Below are positions 11,729 through 52,976 of a stretch of 64,000 nt of DNA, in pieces. Where the stretch lies: positions 32,562,501-32,626,500 of the forward strand of contig NC_073340.2 in assembly GCF_027580225.2 (NCBI RefSeq). Reading direction: 5' to 3'. Source of the DNA: Misgurnus anguillicaudatus. Taxonomy: Eukaryota > Chordata > Actinopteri > Cypriniformes > Cobitidae. The notes below the pieces were generated by a model. That model saw nothing but the letters and a program-made list of their open reading frames with translations, was not told where the DNA came from and did not search any database. The first letter of the stretch is position 1. Each line of letters begins with the position of its first letter. The position numbers were made by a program, and so were the translations under genes.

Positions 11729-13905
11729 CAGCCCTTGTAGCAATTCATCATGAAAAAACTGCACATAATGTAATAAGTATTATATTATTATTGTAATTAA
11801 ATTTTCATCATAATGATTTCAATTATTTTTCAATATAATTAAACAAATGTTACATCACAACCAAGCTGTTGGATTCATGCCATTCAAGCATAAGTCACTT
11901 TGTGTTCTGTTTTGCTGGTTGGTCACAAATTTCTACAAACTTAATAATCCTTATAGTTTCTTTTCCCAAATCATCACAGTCTCACACTTTAATTCTACAG
12001 GTTTATTTTTTTAATCCCTGTTTTCACATTTGTAACTGTGGGAAATAAAATATTTAGTTTTTGGCTTTTTTATATACAAAAAGTAATGGACCATTTTCTA
12101 AAAAAAAAAAGTGAAGTGGTGATTGTTGGGCTAACACCAACATGAGATAAAACAGCATACACACATGTTCTGATTCAGAGATATAGGTCCTGCTAAATGG
12201 TTGTTAGGGTATTCTGTTTGGTTGCTAGGCTGCTGCTATGTGGTTGCTAGTGTGTTACTATGCAGTTGCTAGGGTACCTGGGATGGTTGCAATTCAGTTG
12301 CTAGGGTGTTGCTATGCGCTTGCTAGGGTACCCGAGGTGATTGCTAGGCTGTTGCTATGCAGTTGCTAGGTGCTTGCTATGCGGTTGCTAGGATACCTGG
12401 GTTGGTTGCTAGGATGTTGCTATGCGGTTGCTAGGGTGTTGTTAGGAGTTTGCTAGGGTCCCCGGGGTGGTTGCTAGGAAGTGAATTGGCATCCACTATG
12501 ATTACAGTCCAAGGCTTCTGATGCAAAGATATAGGTCTGGCTAAATGGTTGCTCTGTTTGGTTGCTAGGGTACTCTGTTTGGTTTCCAGGTGGGGTAGCT
12601 ATAGTACCTGGGGTGGTTGCTAGGCTGCTGCTACATGGTTGCTAGGGTGTTCCTATTCAGTTGCTAGGGTACCTGGGATGTTGCCATGCAGATGCTATGG
12701 TGTTGCTATGTGCTTGCTAGGGTACCTGGGTTGGTTGCTAGGTTGTATCTATGCGGTTGCTAGGATACCTGGGTTGGTTGCTAGGATGTTGCTATGCGGT
12801 TGCTAGGGTGTTGTTAGGAGTTTGCTAGGGTTCCCGGGGTGGTTGCTAGGAAGTGAATTGGCATCCACTATGATTACAGTCCAAGGCTTCTGATGCAAAG
12901 ATATAGGTCTCGCTAAATGGTTGCTAGGGTACTCTGTTTGGTTGCTAGGGTACTCTGTTTGGTTTCTAGGTGGGGTAGCTATAGTACCTGGGGTGGTTGC
13001 TAGGCTGCTGCTACATGGTTGCTAGGGTGTTCCTATTCAGTTGCTAGGGTACCTGGGATGGTTGCCATGCAGTTGCTATGGTGTTGCTATGTGCTTGCTA
13101 GGGTACCTGGGTTGGTTGCTAGGTTGTATCTGTGCGGTTGCTAGGTTGTTGCTATGCAGTTGCTAGGGTATCCGGGGTTGTTGCTAGGGAGTGAATTGGC
13201 ATCCATTATGATTACAGTCCAAGGCTTCTGATGCAAAGATATAGGTCTCGCTAAATGGTTGCTCTGTTTGGTTGCTAGGGTACTCTGTTTGGTTGCTAGG
13301 TGGGGTAGCTATAGTACCTGGGGTGGTTGCTAGGCTGCTGCTACATGGTTGCTAGGGTGTTCCTATTCAGTTGCTAGGGTACCTGGGATGGTTGCCATGC
13401 AGTTGCTATGGTGTTGCTATGTGCATGCTAGGGTACCTGGGTTGGTTGCTAGGTTGTATCTATGCGGTTGCTAGTTTGTTGCTATGCGGTTGCTAGGGTA
13501 TCCGGGGTTGTTGCTAGGGAGTGAATGGCATCCACCAATGATTACAGTCCAAGCCACCAAAGAAATGAGACTGCACACATATCTCTACTGATACAAAGAT
13601 ATAGATCTCGCTAAATGGTTGCAAGGGTACTCTGTTTGGTTGCTAAGGAAAGAATTGGCTTCCACCAATGGTTATGCTTAGTGAAACAAGCCTATCCCCA
13701 TGTTTTTACGATATAATAAATGCAAACACCACTAATAATATGTTTGCAGTGTTTAAAATTGTTACAGGTATGACAATATTTTTGGTTTGCGAACCAAATG
13801 ATTATACTATGAACATTTCATTAGAATAATAATGTAATACTTATTACATTTTGTGCAGTTTTTACATGATGTGCAGTTATTACATTACGAGTTGCAACGA
13901 GCCTG
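11729..13905. mobile_element. Inverted-repeat element carrying a minisatellite
   Basis: The ends CAGCCCTTGTAGCAA (11729) and, on the minus strand, CAGGCTCGTTGCAAC (13905) are similar. Further inward both arms carry AAAAACTGCACAWAATGTAAT followed by AAGTATTAYATTATTA. The space between is filled by the GGTTGCTAGG tandem array. No target duplication is visible, so the outer edges are approximate. No coding content. Confidence 0.6.
12190..13650. repeat. GGTTGCTAGG minisatellite with higher-order repeat
   Basis: The array is built from imperfect units around GGTTGCTAGGGT / TTGCTATGC. These units are organised in larger blocks that each contain the spacer GTGAATTGGCATCCACTATG...AAAGATATAGGTCT. The spacer occurs at 12481, 12852, 13191 and 13524, giving block lengths of 371, 339 and 333 bp. 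Blocks differ by small substitutions and lost subunits, as expected from unequal exchange. Confidence 0.9.
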
Positions 13906-14895: not shown

Positions 14896-14901
14896 GTCTA
14901 T
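14896..14901. repeat. Left 6-bp target-site duplication GTCTAT
   Basis: GTCTAT directly precedes the outer end GGTCAGGGG and is repeated exactly at 21912-21917 after the opposite end. Confidence 0.8.
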
Positions 14902-15170
14902 GGTCAGGGGATCTCTGGATAATCCGTAATTCGTTTGTAATTAAAAATCGAAAATACCGCTTTTCTGTTTTTTGTTTCAAAACGAAAAACCAAATAACCG
15001 TTTTTGGTGTCAGAATAAAAAAACGAAAAACCAATTAAAAACGTCCCGTTTTTCGTTTTTTGGCGATAATTTTATCGTTATTCCTTTTTGAACAAAAAAT
15101 GAAGAGTGTCTTTGAACTTCAGTCAATTCGTTTTTCGTTTATTGCAAGTGGTGCCCGCTGCATAGCCAAA

Positions 15171-15260
15171 TGGGCGGAGCTGGAGCTCTAGCGAGGCGTG
15201 GCACCCTCGCTGGATCTAGTGGGCGTGGCAGCATCAAGTGCGCAGGCGCAGATAGAGTTT
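15171..15260 (+). promoter_or_regulatory. TATA-less promoter-like patch in the left arm
   Basis: Within 90 bp lie GGGCGGAGC (15172-15180), GGGCGTGGC (15221-15229; both Sp/KLF-like) and TGCGCAGGCGCA (15239-15250), a close match to the NRF1 palindrome. It is the most GC-rich part of the arm and lies about 290 bp upstream of the first putative coding exon. Promoter function is inferred from motifs only. Confidence 0.45.
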
Positions 15261-16028
15261 GTTTAAACTTCCTGTACAGCCTGTATCAAGTACTCCGGAG
15301 TATTGCACGGGAAGAAAACGGTAATTTAAAGATAAACTGAGCTTTAATATGTATATTAAATCTTAATCTTACAATTATCGCTGTCTCGACGTGATTTTCG
15401 GGAGTGTGTTGAGTTTCGCGTTAAACACTAGATAGCTAATGTGCTAACATTCTCCCGTCCACCACAAGTGGTACGTAGTGTTTTTATTGTAGTTTTTATT
15501 TTTTGTATTCAAATATTTGTTAAACCTGCACAGGTGCACCAGACAATACTTATGCGAGGACAGGATCTTCTGCTGTCTATATCACGGTGCCTACTGTAAA
15601 TAAACATTTACACGAGCTCTGAAATCATGCAGTTCAACAAAAAGGTATGTGTGTGAATTAAATATTTTAATTATACTGTGTGTGATAAACATCATGTTTG
15701 TTGAACCTTTCTGTTTGTGCATGTCATAGTAATTTCTTTCTTGCATTTAAAACTAAAAACATACTGTTCATTTAATATTTTCTTGTGTTGTGAAACCTTT
15801 GGGATGTCTGAATTTAAACTACTTTATTTCAGTTGTTATAATAGTTTTTCTACGTAGCATTACTTATGACTAGTTAAAAACATGTATATAAATACTCTTT
15901 ATGTTGTGCTCTTGAGCAAGGTGATTCATCACGAAAGCTGTTTATATGCAATGCACTGTACAAAACATGTAAACAAGACAATGATGCTAATTTATTCTTT
16001 CTATGTTTTTGATTTTATCATCATCAAG

Positions 16029-16217
16029 CGTGTTCTCAAGTCCAGACGATCCCACACTTTCACTGCTGTTACCGTACATCAACATTTTTAAATGTGTAAA
16101 AATCCAGCCTCTGGACAACCTTCCATTGGCTGCAGCACCCAGCATCAGCATCCCCAGCATCAGCATCCCCACCTTTACTTCCCCTCGACATTGGAACATG
16201 TCTGTACTGATTTTGAG
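16029..16217 (+). CDS. Exon-like segment with the catalytic His-Trp motif of a C48 protease
   Basis: The open frame through this segment includes the stretch PYINIFKCVKIQPLDNLP, a Ser-Ile-Pro repeat (SISIPSISIP), and TSPRHWNMSVLILR just before a GTACAG donor. His-Trp followed by a hydrophobic strand is how the catalytic histidine is presented in Ulp1/SENP enzymes. The acceptor at 16028 (ATCATCAAG) is weak, and the start of the exon is uncertain. The first codon is completed from an upstream exon whose phase I could not reconcile. Confidence 0.5.
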
Positions 16218-16467
16218 GTACAGCTTTTTAACTTCTTGCTGCTTGTAAACTTGTTTAAATATCTTTAGTGGAGTATTAAGACAGAACAAAGTACACAGTT
16301 GTCACAAATAACCCACTGAGGGTCAGTTAAGTAAACCAAGTACACAATTTTAACAAAACTGTAAACAAACAGAAAGACTTAACTTAAAAAAAAAACAATC
16401 CCTAGATGTGACAGCTATATACTGTATTAATTGTATATAGTCTAATTGTATTGTCTATAATTAACAG

Positions 16468-16518
16468 GGTGCCCCTCTACAGCTAGGAGGAATTGATTGT
16501 GGGGTATTTATGTTGATG
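16468..16518 (+). CDS. Exon with the catalytic Cys motif (GGIDCGVF) of a C48 protease
   Basis: A 51-nt, 17-codon exon sits between TTAACAG and GTAAGT, both near-consensus splice sites. Its product GAPLQLGGIDCGVFMLM fits the Ulp1/SENP signature in which a Gln precedes Asp-Cys-Gly and the Cys is the nucleophile. A spaced Gln is present at residue 5. The next possible exon starts YADNI (16788), also expected after this helix, but that reading stops after seven codons. Confidence 0.7.
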
Positions 16519-18064
16519 GTAAGTGGTCTTTTATTTGCTGTACACCTGTCTCTGTGTACTAAACACAGCATTTGTTAATATTGTTTTGTTTTTTGTATGC
16601 ACTCTATGTTATGACTGTGAGTAAACATAAAAAAGAACGATTAAGATTTTCGATTGCTATCTTTTGCCAGTCTGACACACCAATAATCATGAAGTGGCGG
16701 TGCTCAGTTAATTTAGACATTTCCTCTGACAAAGTATGATATTAATAACTATACTTATGATAAAACCTCCATTCTGTGCATTTCCAGTATGCAGACAATA
16801 TATATAAATAAAGCAATGCATGCCTAAAAACATTCTAATGTTTGTCTCTTCGTACAGTCAAGTCCCACAACTACTCACCCAGAAAGTAACATATGCAGAT
16901 AACATGAAATTCACTCCACCTGAGTCAGATGTCATGGAGATCATCCAGACACCAGAGGAAGATGTATGTAGCAGGAATGTTTATGTACTGATTGACTTGT
17001 TTAACTTGTTAATGTGTGTATCAACCTTTCCTCTTTTATGAATTTGTTTATGAGCAGTACATCATTTTTAATTATATTATTATTGGAATTCTTATATAGC
17101 ACACAGGACTCAGCGGTGATGAGAAACATTCAGCTGACCTGTGAGTGGCTAAAGGAGACCACTTGCTGGGAAGATGAGCTGCAAAAGATCTAAAGGATGA
17201 TGCCCTGTTGGCTATAACAATGTTGGACTTGTTTATAAACACCATGTTTTATGAGGGTGAAAGGAATGAAGAAAAAATGTCGACTCCCTTCCCTTTTATA
17301 TTTTAGAGAAGAGCAGGAAATATATGAGACAAGAGTTATTCGTGGGTTTTGTTTACACAAAAAACCCTGTCTTGTGAATCTACTAGTGGGGATAGACTAA
17401 TGTAAATATTGTTTTTTTTGATTGGTTTTGTAAAATACCATTTAACGTTTGTGTGAACTGTAAAGTGTTGTGTTCTTAAAATAAATTTATAATATTTATT
17501 ATCGTATCTTATGATACCATTAAAGTCTTGTGTTCTTGAAATATTCATGATATTATTTTATATCTTCTTATTATAACATTTTATATAGATTTCTTTTATG
17601 TTAGATGCATATTTTGCTAAATTTGGGTTAATAGAAACCAATAAATACACTTGTAGGACAGTGGAGTACAACACTTGTACACCTGAGTATGTGACTATTA
17701 AATTACATTTAGCTTCTACAAAAATGTAGTTGAAGCGAATGCTTCACTAATGTCAAAGCCCATTGTATATCCTCTACTGTGGTAAGTCACATGGTTGGTT
17801 TTAGACTACTTGTCTGCTTATTCATTAAAAATAGCATAATGCATAGTCTATCACATAAAGGTTGAATCTATCCAAAGTTACAGTCAATATTTCATTTAAA
17901 TTTGCTATATCATTTTTACAGCATATGCTTTCACATTTACATACAATAAGGGCAGATTAGGTAACCTAGACTTATTTATTAATATTATATGTATTTATTT
18001 ATTGAATTAATCAGATGATTTCGTAATACAACAAGGTCGTATTAAACATTAGTAAATGCATTAA

Positions 18065-18747
18065 TGGCCTTGTTGTCACTTTCAGATATTTACATCATGG
18101 TTTATGGTAAGCCACAGGAACTTGTATAAAAGTATAATATGACCTTAACATTATAACATTTACAGAAGGTTTTAGTCTTCACTCATCCACTATGCTTGTA
18201 AATCATAAGGGCATATATGCAAGTGAAAGAGTTGCAATGCAAAGCCCTGCTTCACTGTACTGTTGTACATTTGTATTTAAAGACATAATTTGACATCATC
18301 CAATTCCACAAAGTAGTAACACAATTAAAAAATGTGGCTTACCATAAACCATGATGTAAATATCTGAAAGTGACAGCAAGGCCCTTTTATGGAGGAAGGA
18401 GTGGTGTGCTGCTTTGCCAGTGAAAGCTTACTATCTGTGCACCCGTCTTTATTTGTGTCCACCGCAAAGTGTGGGTTGTGAACTAATCTAAATGATCGAT
18501 AACACTTTACAACAAGGTTGTATTTGTTTAGATTAGTTAATGCATTAGCTAACATGAACTATCAAATAACAATACTTCTACGGCATTTATGAATCTTAGT
18601 TCATGTTAATTTCAGCAGTTACTAATAAATTTATAAAATCAAGTGTTGTAACTGTTAACATTAGTTAATGCATGAACGAAATAATTGTATTGACATTAAC
18701 TAACATTAACAAAAATTAAAACTTGCTGAAAAGCTTTATTTTTAATG
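18065..18747. other. Unpaired centre of the 7-kb element
   Basis: The 683-bp centre holds a 50-bp inverted repeat (18066-18115 and 18334-18383, one mismatch) enclosing 218 bp, a short unique part, and most of a separate foldback repeat (18499-18784) that overlaps the right arm by 37 bp. No transposase or other coding exon is seen. Confidence 0.7.
18066..18383. repeat. 50-bp inverted repeat in the element centre
   Basis: GGCCTTGTTGTCACTTTCAG onward at 18066-18115 returns inverted at 18334-18383 with a single T/C mismatch. The loop is 218 bp and AT-rich. Confidence 0.85.
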
Positions 18748-18784
18748 TTAATGCATTTACTAATGTTTAATACGACCTTGTTGT
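18499..18784. mobile_element. Foldback repeat of the TTAGTTAATGCATTA family
   Basis: It begins ATAACACTTTACAACAAGG and ends with the inverse CCTTGTTGT. The interior alternates TTAGTTAATGCATTAGCTAAC-like and inverse blocks, a common fish foldback type. Its last 37 bp form the inner end of the right arm, and the same 37 bp appear at the inner end of the left arm (18028-18064). Confidence 0.6.
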
Positions 18785-19618
18785 ATTACGAAATCATCTG
18801 ATTAATTCAATAAATAAATACATATAATATTAATAAATAAGTCTAGGTTACCTAATCTGCCCTTATTGTATGTAAATGTGAAAGCATATGCTGTAAAAAT
18901 GATATAGCAAATTTAAATGAAATATTGACTGTAACTTTGGATAGATTCAACCTTTATGTGATAGACTATGCATTATGCTATTTTTAATGAATAAGCAGAC
19001 AAGTAGTCTAAAACCAACCATGTGACTTACCACAGTAGAGGATATACAATGGGCTTTGACATTAGTGAAGCATTCGCTTCAACTACATTTTTGTAGAAGC
19101 TAAATGTAATTTAATAGTCACATACTCAGGTGTACAAGTGTTGTACTCCACTGTCCTACAAGTGTATTTATTGGTTTCTATTAACCCAAATTTAGCAAAA
19201 TATGCATCTAACATAAAAGAAATCTATATAAAATGTTATAATAAGAAGATATAAAATAATATCATGAATATTTCAAGAACACAAGACTTTAATGGTATAA
19301 TAAGATACGATAATAAATATTATAAATTTATTTTAAGAACACAACACTTTACAGTTCACACAAACGTTAAATGGTATTTTACAAAACCAATCAAAAAAAA
19401 CAATATTTACATTAGTCTATCCCCACTAGTAGATTCACAAGACAGGGTTTTTTGTGTAAACAAAACCCACGAATAACTCTTGTCTCATATATTTCCTGCT
19501 CTTCTCTAAAATATAAAAGGGAAGGGAGTCGACATTTTTTCTTCATTCCTTTCACCCTCATAAAACATGGTGTTTATAAACAAGTCCAACATTGTTATAG
19601 CCAACAGGGCATCATCCT

Positions 19619-21279
19619 TTAGATCTTTTGCAGCTCATCTTCCCAGCAAGTGGTCTCCTTTAGCCACTCACAGGTCAGCTGAATGTTTCTCATCATCGCT
19701 GAGTCCTGTGTGCTATATAAGAATTCCAATAATAATATAATTAAAAATGATGTACTGCTCATAAACAAATTCATAAAAGAGGAAAGGTTGATACACACAT
19801 TAACAAGTTAAACAAGTCAATCAGTACATAAACATTCCTGCTACATACATCTTCCTCTGGTGTCTGGATGATCTCCATGACATCTGACTCAGGTGGAGTG
19901 AATTTCATGTTATCTGCATATGTTACTTTCTGGGTGAGTAGTTGTGGGACTTGACTGTACGAAGAGACAAACATTAGAATGTTTTTAGGCATGCATTGCT
20001 TTATTTATATATATTGTCTGCATACTGGAAATGCACAGAATGGAGGTTTTATCATAAGTATAGTTATTAATATCATACTTTGTCAGAGGAAATGTCTAAA
20101 TTAACTGAGCACCACCACTTCATGATTATTGGTGTGTCAGACTGGCAAAAGATAGCAATCGAAAATCTTAATCGTTCTTTTTTTATGTTTACTCACAGTC
20201 ATAACATAGAGTGCATACAAAAAACAAAACAATATTAACAAATGCTGTGTTTAGTACACAGACACAGGTGTACAGCAAATAAAAGACCACTTACCATCAA
20301 CATAAATACCCCACAATCAATTCCTCCTAGCTGTAGAGGGGCACCCTGTTAATTATAGACAATACAATTAGACTATATACAATTAATACAGTATATAGCT
20401 GTCACATCTAGGGATTGTTTTTTTTTTAAGTTAAGTCTTTCTGTTTGTTTACAGTTTTGTTAAAATTGTGTACTTGGTTTACTTAACTGACCCTCAGTGG
20501 GTTATTTGTGACAACTGTGTACTTTGTTCTGTCTTAATACTCCACTAAAGATATTTAAACAAGTTTACAAGCAGCAAGAAGTTAAAAAGCTGTACCTCAA
20601 AATCAGTACAGACATGTTCCAATGTCGAGGGGAAGTAAAGGTGGGGATGCTGATGCTGGGGATGCTGATGCTGGGTGCTGCAGCCAATGGAAGGTTGTCC
20701 AGAGGCTGGATTTTTACACATTTAAAAATGTTGATGTACGGTAACAGCAGTGAAAGTGTGGGATCGTCTGGAGTTGAGAACACGCTTGATGATGATAAAA
20801 TCAAAAACATAGAAAGAATAAATTAGCATCATTGTCTTGTTTACATGTTTTGTACAGTGCATTGCATATAAACAGCTTTCGTGATGAATCACCTTGCTCA
20901 AGAGCACAACATAAAGAGTATTTATATACATGTTTTTAACTAGTCATAAGTAATGCTACGTAGAAAAACTATTATAACAACTGAAATAAAGTAGTTTAAA
21001 TTCAGACATCCCAAAGGTTTCACAACACAAGAAAATATTAAATGAACAGTATGTTTTTAGTTTAAAATGCAAGAAAGAAATTACTATGACATGCACAAAC
21101 AGAAAGGTTCAACAAACATGATGTTTATCACACACAGTATAATTAAAATATTTAAATCACACACATCCCTTTTTGTTGAACTGCATGATTTCAGAGCTCG
21201 TGTAAATGTTTATTTACAGTAGGCACCGTGATATAGACAGCAGAAGATCCTGTCCTCGCATAAGTATTGTCTGGTGCAC
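19619..21279 (-). pseudogene. Split Ulp1/SENP-like protease gene relic, right arm
   Basis: This is the mirror copy of the left-arm gene. The matching pieces are first exon 21169-21279, His-Trp exon about 20596-20784, Cys exon 20295-20345, YADNM exon about 19849-19929, and last exon 19619-19705 with its stop at 19619-19621. One difference matters: the first donor reads GGATGT instead of GTATGT (base 21167), so this copy has lost that splice site. The His-Trp exon has a Ser-to-Thr type change upstream (AGTCCAGAC to ACTCCAGAC). The same Asp-containing exon is missing as in the left copy. The two copies are convergent, with 3' ends about 2.4 kb apart. Not expected to make active protease. Confidence 0.6.
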
Positions 21280-21552
21280 CTGTGCAGGTTTAACAAATAT
21301 TTGAATACAAAAAATAAAAACTACAATAAAAACACTACGTACCACTTGTGGTGGACGGGAGAATGTTAGCACATTAGCTATCTAGTGTTTAACGCGAAAC
21401 TCAACATACTCCCGAAAATCACGTCGATACAGCGATAATTGTAAGATTAAGATTTAATATACATATTAAAGCTCAGTTTATCTTTAAATTACCGTTTTCT
21501 TCCCGTGCAATACTCCGGAATACTTGATACAGGCTGTACAGGAAGTTTAAAC

Positions 21553-21643
21553 AAACTCTATCTGCGCCTGCGCACTTGATGCTGCCACGCCCACTAGATC
21601 CAGCGAGGGTGCCACGCCTCGCTAGAGCTCCAGCTCCGCCCAT
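21553..21643 (-). promoter_or_regulatory. TATA-less promoter-like patch in the right arm
   Basis: Mirror of the left-arm patch. The NRF1-like palindrome is at 21563-21574 and both Sp/KLF-like boxes are unchanged. Confidence 0.45.
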
Positions 21644-21911
21644 TTGGCTATGCAGCGGGCACCACTTGCAATAAACGAAAAACGAATTGACTGAAGTTCA
21701 AAGACACTCTTCATTTTTTGTTCAAAAAGGAATAACGATAAAATTATCGCCAAAAAACGAAAAACGGGACGTTTTTAATTGGTTTTTCGTTTTTTTATTC
21801 TGACACCAAAAACGGTTATTTGGTTTTTCGTTTTGAAACAAAAAACAGAAAAGCGGTATTTTCGATTTTTAATTACAAACGAATTACGGATTATCCAGAG
21901 ATCCCCTGACC

Positions 21912-21917
21912 GTCTAT
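21912..21917. repeat. Right 6-bp target-site duplication GTCTAT
   Basis: Exact match to 14896-14901, immediately outside the right end CCCCTGACC. Confidence 0.8.
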
Positions 21918-28494: not shown

Positions 28495-29655
28495 GGTGGA
28501 AATTAAGATAATCAAGATATTTATGTCTTTCTTTGTTCAGTCAAAAATTAATTTGAAGTTTTTTGAGAAAAACATTCCAAGATTTTTGTCCATATAGTGG
28601 ACCTCAGTGGTTTGCAGTTTCAATGCAGTTTAAAAGAGCTCTAAACGATCCCAAACAAGGCATAAGGGTCTTATCTAGCAAAACGATTGTCATTTTCACC
28701 ACATGTACTTTTAAACCACAACTTCTTGTCTTACACTAGTCGTGTGACGTGCCATGACCTTACGTATTATGTAATCACGTCAAAAAGTCACACGTTACAT
28801 ATATGAAACACACATACAACAACATCAGAGCGGTCCCTTTCTCCGCACTGGAGAGGTTCGCATACGTCAAGCGTGACCTTTCGATGTGATTACGTAATAC
28901 GTAAGGTCATGCTGGTGCATCACAATTCTAGTGCAAGACGAGAAGTTGTGGTTAGAAAGTACCTTTTTTGGCAAAAATTATGATCGTTTTGCTAGTTAAG
29001 ACCTTTATGCCTTGGTTGGGGTCGTTTAGAGCCGTTTGAAGCTGCATTGAAACCGCAGTTTTAAACTCCATTGAAACTAAAGATGTTCTGATACGATTTT
29101 CTCTTCCCGATTCCAATACCTGGGCTCAGGGTATCGGCTGATACCGAGTACTTATACGATACCTGGGTGTGGACCTGTATGGTGAACGTGATTTCACCAA
29201 GTAAGATGTGATCCTGGATCAATACCAGATGTGGTCCTGGATCAACATTTTCATTAACCAATCAGATTGCAGGATTAAGATTAGTGTGCATGTATATCGG
29301 TATACAGCTGTATGTACTACTAGCCCTGAATGAACTTATATAATTATTTTATGGTGTGCTTCAGACTTATTCATTAATAAAACACAAACAAATAATTATA
29401 CCAGTGAACTTGAGTATTTTATTATGTAAAATACATTTGACATTAATATTATTTATTTTTCTTAGGTGAATAATCAGAACAAGCCTAATTGAAACGCTGA
29501 GGTCCATTAAAGTCCACCATATGGAGAAAAATCCTGGACGTTTTTTCTCAAAAAACTTGATTTCTTATCAACTGAACAAAGACATCAACATCTTGGATGA
29601 CATAGGGGTGAGTAAAATATCAGATTTTTTTATAAAAGTGGAGTAAGCCTTTAAC
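28495..29655. mobile_element. Foldback transposon interrupted by an hAT
   Basis: Left-arm blocks such as CTTTCTTTGTTCAGT, AAACGATCCCAAACAAGGCAT and CTTGTCTTACACTAG return inverted in the right arm. The right arm is split by the hAT at 29078-29487. A fragment of the same family lies at 49300-49470. Edges are approximate. Confidence 0.6.
29078..29487. mobile_element. Non-autonomous hAT with 8-bp TSD, nested
   Basis: The ends TAAAGATGTTCTG and, inverted, TAGGCTTGTTCTG are flanked by a perfect duplication ATTGAAAC (29070-29077 and 29488-29495). Removing the 410-bp insert restores the arm of the surrounding foldback element. Near the left end it has the GATACC-rich sequence common in such hATs. 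Confidence 0.85.
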
Positions 29656-38393: not shown

Positions 38394-38862
38394 GTACACT
38401 ATCAGCAAAAAAAGGTTCCTAGTTTTCACTGTCAAAGTACCCTTTAAAAAATCCTAATATGTACCATTATATACTAATATGCACTCTTTAGGTAAGTATG
38501 TACCTCTGAGGTGCTAATATATGAACTCTTTATCGCTCTAGATAGGGTTATTTTTAACCTATACTGGGTAAATATTGGACAGAACACACTGCTGGGTTAA
38601 AATTGACCTAATGCTGGGTTGTTTTAACTCAACTGCTGGGTTATTGTAACCCATGGTTGCAAAACAACAACCCAACATTGGGTAATTTTTAACCAAAAAA
38701 GGGATCTTTCTTATTAACCCATTATGGGTTCAAAATAACCCAGCCATTTTTAGAGCGCTAAAGAGATCATATTAGCACCTCAGAGGTATGCATTACTCAC
38801 CAAAGAGTGCATATTGGGTTAAAAATAACCAAAGGTTCAAAGGTGTAATTTTTTCAACGGGT
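38394..38862. mobile_element. Foldback MITE with a second MITE in its loop
   Basis: The outer arms carry ACCTCTGAGGTGCTAATAT (38502) and its inverse (38770), plus inverted GCACTCTTT blocks. The loop is occupied by the element at 38533-38758. Confidence 0.6.
38533..38758. mobile_element. Nested AACCCAGC-rich MITE
   Basis: Ends ATCGCTCTAGA and TTTAGAGCGCT are inverted. The interior is a chain of TGGGTTA/TAACCCA motifs, including CAACCCAACATTGGGTAA, typical of a common fish MITE. Confidence 0.65.
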
Positions 38863-52310: not shown

Positions 52311-52311
52311 G

Positions 52312-52598
52312 TACACTCTAAAAACAAACAGTGCTATATAGCACCAAAAGTGGTTCTTTGCTCGTAATCATAGAAGAAACGTTTTTAGTGCCATATAGCA
52401 CCGGTGAAGCACCTGTCTAGAACCATATAGTGCTATGTAGAACCAAATGTGGTGCTATAGTGGTGCTATATGGCCCCTATATGGTTCTACACAGGTGCTT
52501 CACCGGTGCTATATGGCACTAAAAACGGTTCTTCTATGGTTACGATTCAAATCAACAGTTTTGGTGCTATATAGCACCGTTTGTTTTTTTAGAGTGTA
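52312..52598. mobile_element. TACACTCTAAAAA MITE with GCTATATAGCACC arms
   Basis: TACACTCTAAAAA and its inverse TAGAGTGTA bound a 287-bp palindromic element. GTGCTATATAGCACC appears in both arms, and CCGGTGAAGCACCTGT is mirrored. If the outer TA is the duplication, this is a Tc1/mariner-type MITE. Confidence 0.75.
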
Positions 52599-52976
52599 CA
52601 GTAATAATAGACCATTTTATTCTAGGGGTAAATCCTAGGGTTATAAATGGACATGTAAAACCGTCTCTGGAACATTTTTGCACTTAATAAAGTCGCATAC
52701 CTTCTATGTAGATACAATGTAAAAAAATATTTTGAGGCTTAGTAAATGTAACTAAATAAAATGAGTAAATTCTAATAAAAAAATAGTCCTTGCTATTTAA
52801 TCAAAATTTTGTAAAATTACACAAAAAAGTGAGTAATTCTAAAAGAACATAGTATTTAGTAAATTCAACTAAATTTTATCATGAAAAATTTGTAAGAAGG
52901 AAATTAAATTAATATTTTTTGGTTGAAATTAATTGAATTATTTTAGTAAATATAACTAACTAGGCAGTGGACTAAA

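Follow-up and report, generated by a model that had tools for sequence, protein, structure and literature searches.

A family of palindromic, foldback-like DNA transposons with 6-bp target-site duplications in the genome of Misgurnus anguillicaudatus

The window analysed here is a stretch of 64,000 nucleotides of the Misgurnus anguillicaudatus genome (contig NC_073340.2, positions 32,562,501 to 32,626,500; coordinates below are counted from its first letter). It contains a 7010-bp mobile element at 14902-21911, which we assign to a new family of palindromic DNA transposons working like foldback elements. The hexamer GTCTAT directly adjoins both ends, at 14896-14901 and at 21912-21917, immediately outside GGTCAGGGGATC and GATCCCCTGACC. 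The left arm (A arm, 3163 bp, 14902-18064, plus strand) and the right arm (B arm, 3164 bp, 18748-21911, minus strand) are inverted copies of each other: BLASTN of the former against the reverse complement of the latter returned one alignment of 3164 columns with 99.62% identity, the differences being 11 substitutions and one 1-bp indel, a likeness far beyond chance. The arms account for 6327 of the 7010 bp (90%) and enclose a spacer of 683 bp (18065-18747). These values agree with an earlier note on this DNA, which had reported inverted arms more than 99% identical with about a dozen differences, inverted repeats making up nine tenths of the element, and an intact 6-bp target-site duplication (TSD) on both sides.

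The terminal 25 bp, near-invariant across genome matches and arms and presumed to be the end recognised by the transposase, lie at 14902-14926 (plus strand) and, with the same sequence, at 21887-21911 (minus strand). The outer 240 bp of the left arm (14902-15141, plus strand) are AT-rich and contain repeated AAAACGAAAAAC-like motifs; tandem repeats in the arms are limited to one 34-bp, 2.3-copy array per arm. Further inwards, 15142-17310 (plus strand) contains pieces homologous, at 65-72% nucleotide identity and with intron DNA included, to non-palindromic protease loci on two other contigs. Within it lies the relic of a multi-exon Ulp1/C48-type protease gene (16180-17303, plus strand), which is mirrored in the right arm (19509-20633, minus strand).

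The outer 404 bp of the element served as query against the assembly that holds the window, 1.12 Gb in 61 contigs; in what follows L-numbers denote loci fetched from this genome and C-numbers its contigs. The search gave at least 42 scored matches; by position these form 17 inverted pairs, one of them in the window, plus eight others. Besides the window element the genome thus has at least 16 two-ended copies, and these 16 pairs were compared together with their flanks. Exact 6-bp duplications flank 12 of the 17 two-ended copies and all 12 are different (GTCTAT, GCGTAC, CATTTC, CTCAGG, GTGCTT, CGGAGT, TTTAAC, GTGTAC, AGTTTA, TTACAT, CGTAAC, CTTCTC); by eye, no target motif common to them was apparent. 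The joined flanks of the 12 copies were also compared with the loci already fetched, rather than with the whole genome, and an uninterrupted site carrying the 6-mer once was found for three of them, L018, L019 and L021. The empty site of L018 is in L028 (98.5% over 134 bp), and L019 and L021 each contain the empty site of the other (99.3% each), their insertions lying about 150 bp apart in two copies of one sequence, which may be paralogous or allelic. The joined flanks of L025 gave gapped matches only (72-79%) and were not counted as an empty site. The element inserts at unrelated targets and duplicates 6 bp on doing so. The copies with the same ends and 6-bp TSDs that the earlier note proposed to look for do exist, and sites without the element are seen for these three copies, the window copy not being among them.

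Palindromes are a known assembly hazard, thus it must be considered whether the assembler duplicated one arm in inverted orientation. We hold this to be extremely improbable, because 16 other loci repeat the architecture at other insertion points with arms 0.2 to 6% apart; moreover, 12 of the 17 loci have their own duplications, and a spacer separates the arms in all copies except L010. With 17 loci at different insertion points, an origin by chance or by assembly was rejected.

The same arms are present in all 17 copies. Sixteen of these also share one spacer, which can point either way, the outside of the element being symmetrical; in L010 the spacer is gone, together with part of one arm. 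The asymmetry of the spacer allows the A arm to be told from the B arm in those 16 copies, whereas the labels in L010 are arbitrary. The identity of the two arms within a copy ranges from 94.0% (L024) to 99.8% (L011), the window having 99.65% by the same measure, and the arms of the oldest copies are 4-6% apart. When the 34 arms are placed in a tree, those labelled B in L017, L019, L023, L024 and L025 split from all other arms with a support of 1.0, from which we infer that these five old copies descend from an ancestor with already diverged arms. The presence of the same spacer in 16 of the 17 copies argues for one origin, and judging from the sequences the palindrome appears to be ancestral to the family. 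At a substitution rate of a few 1e-9 per site and year, the 11 differences in 3163 bp suggest that the arms of the window copy were last alike some hundred thousand years ago. The earlier note had called the element young; this applies to the insertion in the window, but the palindromic family is older, as the divergence of the arms in the oldest copies indicates.

The pieces of the protease relic in the left arm lie at 16180-16209 (HWNMSVL), 16465-16518 (GAPLQLGGIDCGVFMLM), 16593-16703, 16856-16951, 17107-17199 (which runs into a stop) and 17193-17303. Translated in six frames, the arm pieces match a Triplophysa rosa protein (P0001, E 1.2e-16), two Clarias gariepinus proteins (E 1.2e-9 and 1.4e-5) and a Labeo rohita protein named 'HMG domain-containing 3' (E 1.7e-3), and mapping back by TBLASTN with the fish proteins P0001-P0004 outlined the multi-exon gene in the left arm and its mirror image in the right. 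Among seven relatives scanned, the Pfam domain PF02902 (Peptidase_C48, Ulp1 family) was above the cut-off in P0004 (Labeo) and P0006 (Xyrauchen) and below it in P0007 (Phoxinus), and did not match P0001, P0002, P0003 and P0005. The relic pieces themselves had no Pfam match to Peptidase_C48, and a search of the PDB with them was likewise fruitless. By way of these relatives the arm gene can be classified as related to the Ulp1/C48 proteases. A stop interrupts the protease frame in every listed arm match, so the gene had been disrupted by the time the sampled copies began to spread. Another inverted pair of the relic is found on C14, at 2581096 (plus) and 2584206 (minus), about 3 kb apart and with no match to the 25-bp end nearby; it is probably one more palindrome that has lost its ends.

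It is possible, though on balance doubtful, that the protease is a captured host gene, as in Pack-type elements, and not the element's own. The comparison with the C5 and C6 loci, which both have an open 117-amino-acid frame of the last protease exon, bears on this question. Over arm positions 612 to 2409 (for C6, 725 onwards) pieces of the two loci, with their introns, are 66-72% identical to the arm, and a weaker piece, seen with C5 only, matches arm positions 241-301 (65.6%, E 8e-4). The homology to C5 thus sets in at about position 241, short of the element end, and neither locus significantly matched arm positions 1-240, as would be expected of capture. The outermost piece is weak, however, and C5 and C6 carry what are repeats in their own right: the two loci agree at 95.7% over 1651 columns, differ in their left flanks and may be mobile too. 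A distantly related protease gene in L044 (C7:8345239-8346770) has its last exon duplicated tail to tail, the two being 89% identical and both frames open, so that a gene of this type is found in inverted arrangement a second time.

Searching the whole genome for the 25-bp end pattern with up to three mismatches yielded 47 matches (43 exact, two with one mismatch and two with three), of which 44 begin with GGTCAG, whereas the reversed pattern, used as a control, yielded none. Over the 34 aligned arms no mismatch was seen in the first 25 bp, compared with 2.4% at positions 26-50 and 2.7% at 51-130; this zero is slightly too favourable, since mismatches at the ends are lost in local alignment and L023 carries other sequence in place of the outer 6 bp of its left end. 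The outermost 25 bp are more constrained than the rest of the arm. An exact 23-bp end pattern had no match in the viral or the genome contig collection. On C24, beside L022, two exact ends and one end with three mismatches lie in the same orientation within 1.1 kb (33475156, 33475377 and 33476249), which suggests a rearrangement or a nested insertion. In L032 (133-159; C2:49774532) only the outermost 27 bp of an end are present, followed by unrelated DNA with a frame that by eye looks B30.2-like; this could be a scar of excision or truncation.

Neither the 17 copies nor the parts fetched of 12 lone-end loci showed a recognisable transposase, the interiors being partly covered and the frames judged mostly by eye. 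Since the protease frame is stopped in every listed arm match and no transposase frame was seen in the copies, the family appears to be non-autonomous. The earlier note had described a young, non-autonomous palindromic DNA transposon that makes 6-bp duplications and has the relic of a gene in both arms; this stood up to the tests, the relic being the broken Ulp1/C48-type gene mapped in both arms. As for a complete partner, the 18.7-kb copy on C9 (L015+L016) was rejected, as it is the same palindrome containing 8.9 kb and 2.8 kb of other DNA, and the lone ends L026-L037 gave no support for one in the parts fetched. By eye, L027 has a Gypsy-like frame, L034 a 5S-like piece and L035 an RT-like frame, and L037 looks like a chance match. 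L034 and L035 (C10:18596189 and C25:939457) share arm positions 1-130 with the family and then continue in a common sequence of their own to about 240-266, a sequence which is also found in the repeat into which L019 and L021 inserted. They may represent a second subfamily, and the lineage holding the transposase partner.

Two known groups can be considered as the source of the transposase. The first is hAT6, of which the family would be a derivative. The motif CAGGGG within the element end resembles hAT ends. The length of the duplication (6 bp in 12 of 17 copies) also fits, and hAT families with 6-bp duplications are described in the excerpts of PMC12730594. Since the duplication stands beyond GGTCAGGGG, CAGGGG is not the beginning of the element, and no hAT transposase was tied to these ends, no hAT search having been made; we find derivation from hAT6 unlikely. 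The second is KDZ (Zisupton-like), of which the element would be a relic. Ulp1-type proteases accompany KDZ transposases in fish. The arm relic is a gene of this type, one of its relatives being the protein named 'HMG domain-containing 3', and the genome has at least 62 matches to the KDZ transposase (PF18758), all listed ones above the cut-off; this count is a lower bound, 150 of 179 candidates having been scored. The nearest of the 62 listed matches is, however, 84 kb away from any of the 47 end matches, and on the listed matches a KDZ transposase near the ends was rejected. The duplications are 6 bp here, in contrast to the 8 bp of Zisupton and the 7 bp of Kyakuja (excerpts of PMC12730594). 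A KDZ origin is thus very unlikely. Many of the KDZ matches in this genome have open frames, and none were found in 14 control genomes.

Two miniature inverted-repeat transposable element (MITE)-like sequences lie in and around the spacer. One (18063-18386) has 54-bp inverted repeats, begins at the inner edge of the left arm and has a partner copy (about 83%) in L033. The other (18508-18785) has inverted repeats of about 100 bp (18508-18611 and 18698-18785), the right one crossing the inner edge of the right arm. These two repeats align with a score of 74, compared with a maximum of 50 in 300 shuffles. The end of the left arm is an inverted copy of the outer part of the right repeat, and can be aligned, along 40 columns, with the left repeat (score 48, for which there is no separate control). 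It is from where the arms end that an origin by folding back may be proposed. The palindrome would have arisen once, in an element ancestral to the sampled copies, probably through a fold-back inside the inverted repeat at 18508-18785 while an ordinary element was being repaired or replicated. The inward-copied strand of the right side would have folded back, copied the right side again and replaced the left side, perhaps including the transposase, and the protease gene, already broken in this founder, would have been carried along. A transposase made elsewhere would recognise the 25-bp ends, move the whole 7-kb palindrome and insert it at unrelated targets by a 6-bp staggered cut. The arms have since diverged, and in some copies changes have been transferred from one arm to the other, probably by hairpin or cruciform pairing during excision and repair or replication; after insertion the arms would mostly drift apart.

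The evidence for copying between the arms comes from comparing the arms of all copies. In seven of the 17 copies the two arms are each other's closest relatives, with supports of 1.0 (window), 1.0 (L013), 0.999 (L015+L016), 0.994 (L011), 0.994 (L014), 0.941 (L010) and 0.825 (L012); 12 pairs were tested by name, and L017, L019, L021, L022 and L023 were read from the tree. Of the 176 variants present in exactly two arms (from an alignment projected on the window arm, with insertions dropped), 66 fall within the two arms of one copy, compared with 5.3 expected if arms were paired at random. The private variants of a copy found in both arms and in one arm number, respectively, 8 and 8 in the window, 6 and 4 in L011, 11 and 13 in L014, 12 and 16 in L015+L016, 5 and 14 in L013, 0 and 51 in L018, and 4 and 74 in L024. 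Over the 17 copies the both-arm and single-arm counts are negatively correlated (Spearman -0.64, P 0.005), and grouping the copies into young and old gave 42:55 versus 25:372 (Fisher P 2e-17). In the younger part of the family the arms have been homogenised within copies.

Steady copying after insertion predicts most shared changes where there are most private ones. The reverse was seen, therefore homogenisation is most likely tied to the mobile lineage, taking place before or during insertion. An alternative is ordinary gene conversion: as in sex-chromosome palindromes, neighbouring inverted repeats would keep the arms alike in place, with no link to transposition. The transfer from arm to arm is clear, and inverted repeats 0.7 kb apart are plausible substrates of gene conversion. 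L009 also speaks for this alternative, and against a tie to mobility: it has few private changes, yet one of them is in both arms and 17 are in one. At a steady rate, however, conversion in place would make the both-arm variants rise with the private changes, which is opposite to the trend observed, and copies like L018 and L024, with none or few shared among many, contrast with the window and L011; we therefore consider this alternative rather unlikely.

Taken together, the element is probably best explained as a foldback-like, non-autonomous DNA transposon copy which was mobilised in trans and whose arms were homogenised in the mobile lineage; our confidence in this explanation is good. It must be noted that a number of points weigh against it. 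Five of the 17 copies (L012, L015+L016, L017, L022 and L023) have no exact duplication. The fold-back origin is drawn from one junction. No transposase was seen between matching ends, so that mobilisation in trans is inferred, and the link between homogenisation and mobility is indirect. Ten of the 17 copies do not pair with their own arm over the whole arm, and own-arm pairing differs by segment. The largest class of two-arm variants joins different copies (L018_A with L019_B, 13 variants), with further such classes for L019_B with L024_B (10) and L018_B with L024_B (9), a sign either that copies have exchanged sequence or that those arms are poorly aligned. The private counts depend on the relatives sampled, the young-versus-old grouping was picked after the data were seen, and of the four both-arm variants of L024 three lie next to one another and could stem from misalignment. 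A bolder proposition would be that the element belongs to a vertebrate DNA transposon superfamily not described so far, marked by GGTCAGGGGATC ends and 6-bp duplications, whose mobile form is the near-complete palindrome and whose arms are rewritten by hairpin mismatch repair at each jump; this we regard as decidedly unlikely.

Elsewhere in the window, a tandem array at 12168-13645 is built of a unit rich in GGTTGCTAGGGT and shows higher-order periods near 65 and 330 bp, and three self-inverted palindromes of about 290-460 bp with 75-85% identity (28613-29057, 38476-38815 and 52311-52599) are probably older MITE-like elements.

What makes the family useful is that 17 copies of different age, with the A and B arms distinguishable in 16, and uninterrupted sites are available in one genome. 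Whether the arms of long palindromes are made alike in place or during transposition becomes a testable question, while the ends and the duplication length point to a transposase source yet to be found. Likeness of the arms within a copy is reported for a few Galileo copies in the excerpts of PMC2775673; here it can be followed against copies with drifted arms. Long palindromes of this kind are likely hot spots of breakage and inversion, as proposed for Galileo (PMC2775673, in the same excerpts).

It is instructive to compare the family with known systems, the descriptions of which are taken from excerpts of the papers cited. Among the papers listed in searches of open-licence PMC text, with Repbase and Dfam outside the scope, no matching description of a foldback, palindromic or fish transposon with 6-bp duplications was found. 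Polintons have AG..CT termini. The ends of our element are GG..CC, a comparison limited to termini as Polinton genes were not searched for. Dada elements make 6- or 7-bp duplications and are present in fish (PMC3706591, PMC8869645), but they are without terminal inverted repeats, in contrast to the 3.16-kb inverted repeats seen here, and they enter small RNA genes (PMC3706591), none of which was matched in the window (tRNA and Rfam scans of the window, not of the flanks of other copies, gave 0 matches). IS3EU, compared here together with GingerRoot, usually has 6-bp duplications, but its complete families end in TA..TA (PMC10045372), not in GG..CC. The 6-bp groups named in the earlier note (Polinton, IS3EU and Dada) thus each differ in a tested feature, and with no transposase between these ends in the sequence covered, its placing of the element in an unassigned group holds; it had overlooked hAT6, another group with 6-bp duplications.

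Tm1, a Mutator/Foldback element of root-knot nematodes, likewise has foldback-like inverted arms, of varying length, and includes non-autonomous groups that descend from a larger element, but it makes 9-bp duplications and its arms are composites with short tandem motifs (PMC3169594). Very long inverted arms around a short middle, characteristic of the Foldback-like class, are present here, where the arms make up 90% of the element and the other copies have the same plan, reduced in L010. The arms of that class are internally repetitive; those of our element have the single short array only, hence it is not a Foldback member and only works like one. Galileo, a foldback-like element of the P superfamily in Drosophila, is the nearest in behaviour. 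Both have long inverted arms, mostly non-coding copies and ends more conserved than the rest (PMC2775673, PMC4168063, PMC3573991). Some Galileo copies have arms more than 99% alike, although arms of different copies are about 7% apart (PMC2775673), and internal DNA has been recruited into the arms (PMC3573991, PMC4168063). Galileo, however, makes 7- or 8-bp duplications at a preferred target, and its arms, up to 1.2 kb long, are internally repetitive, unlike the 3.16-kb arms, without such an array, and the 6-bp duplications, without an apparent motif among 12, described here. With respect to duplication length and arm structure the element is therefore neither a Galileo nor strictly a Foldback member. 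It belongs to a new family of palindromic DNA transposons, not assigned to a superfamily, which works like the foldback elements and differs from Dada, IS3EU, Polinton and KDZ in at least one feature each.

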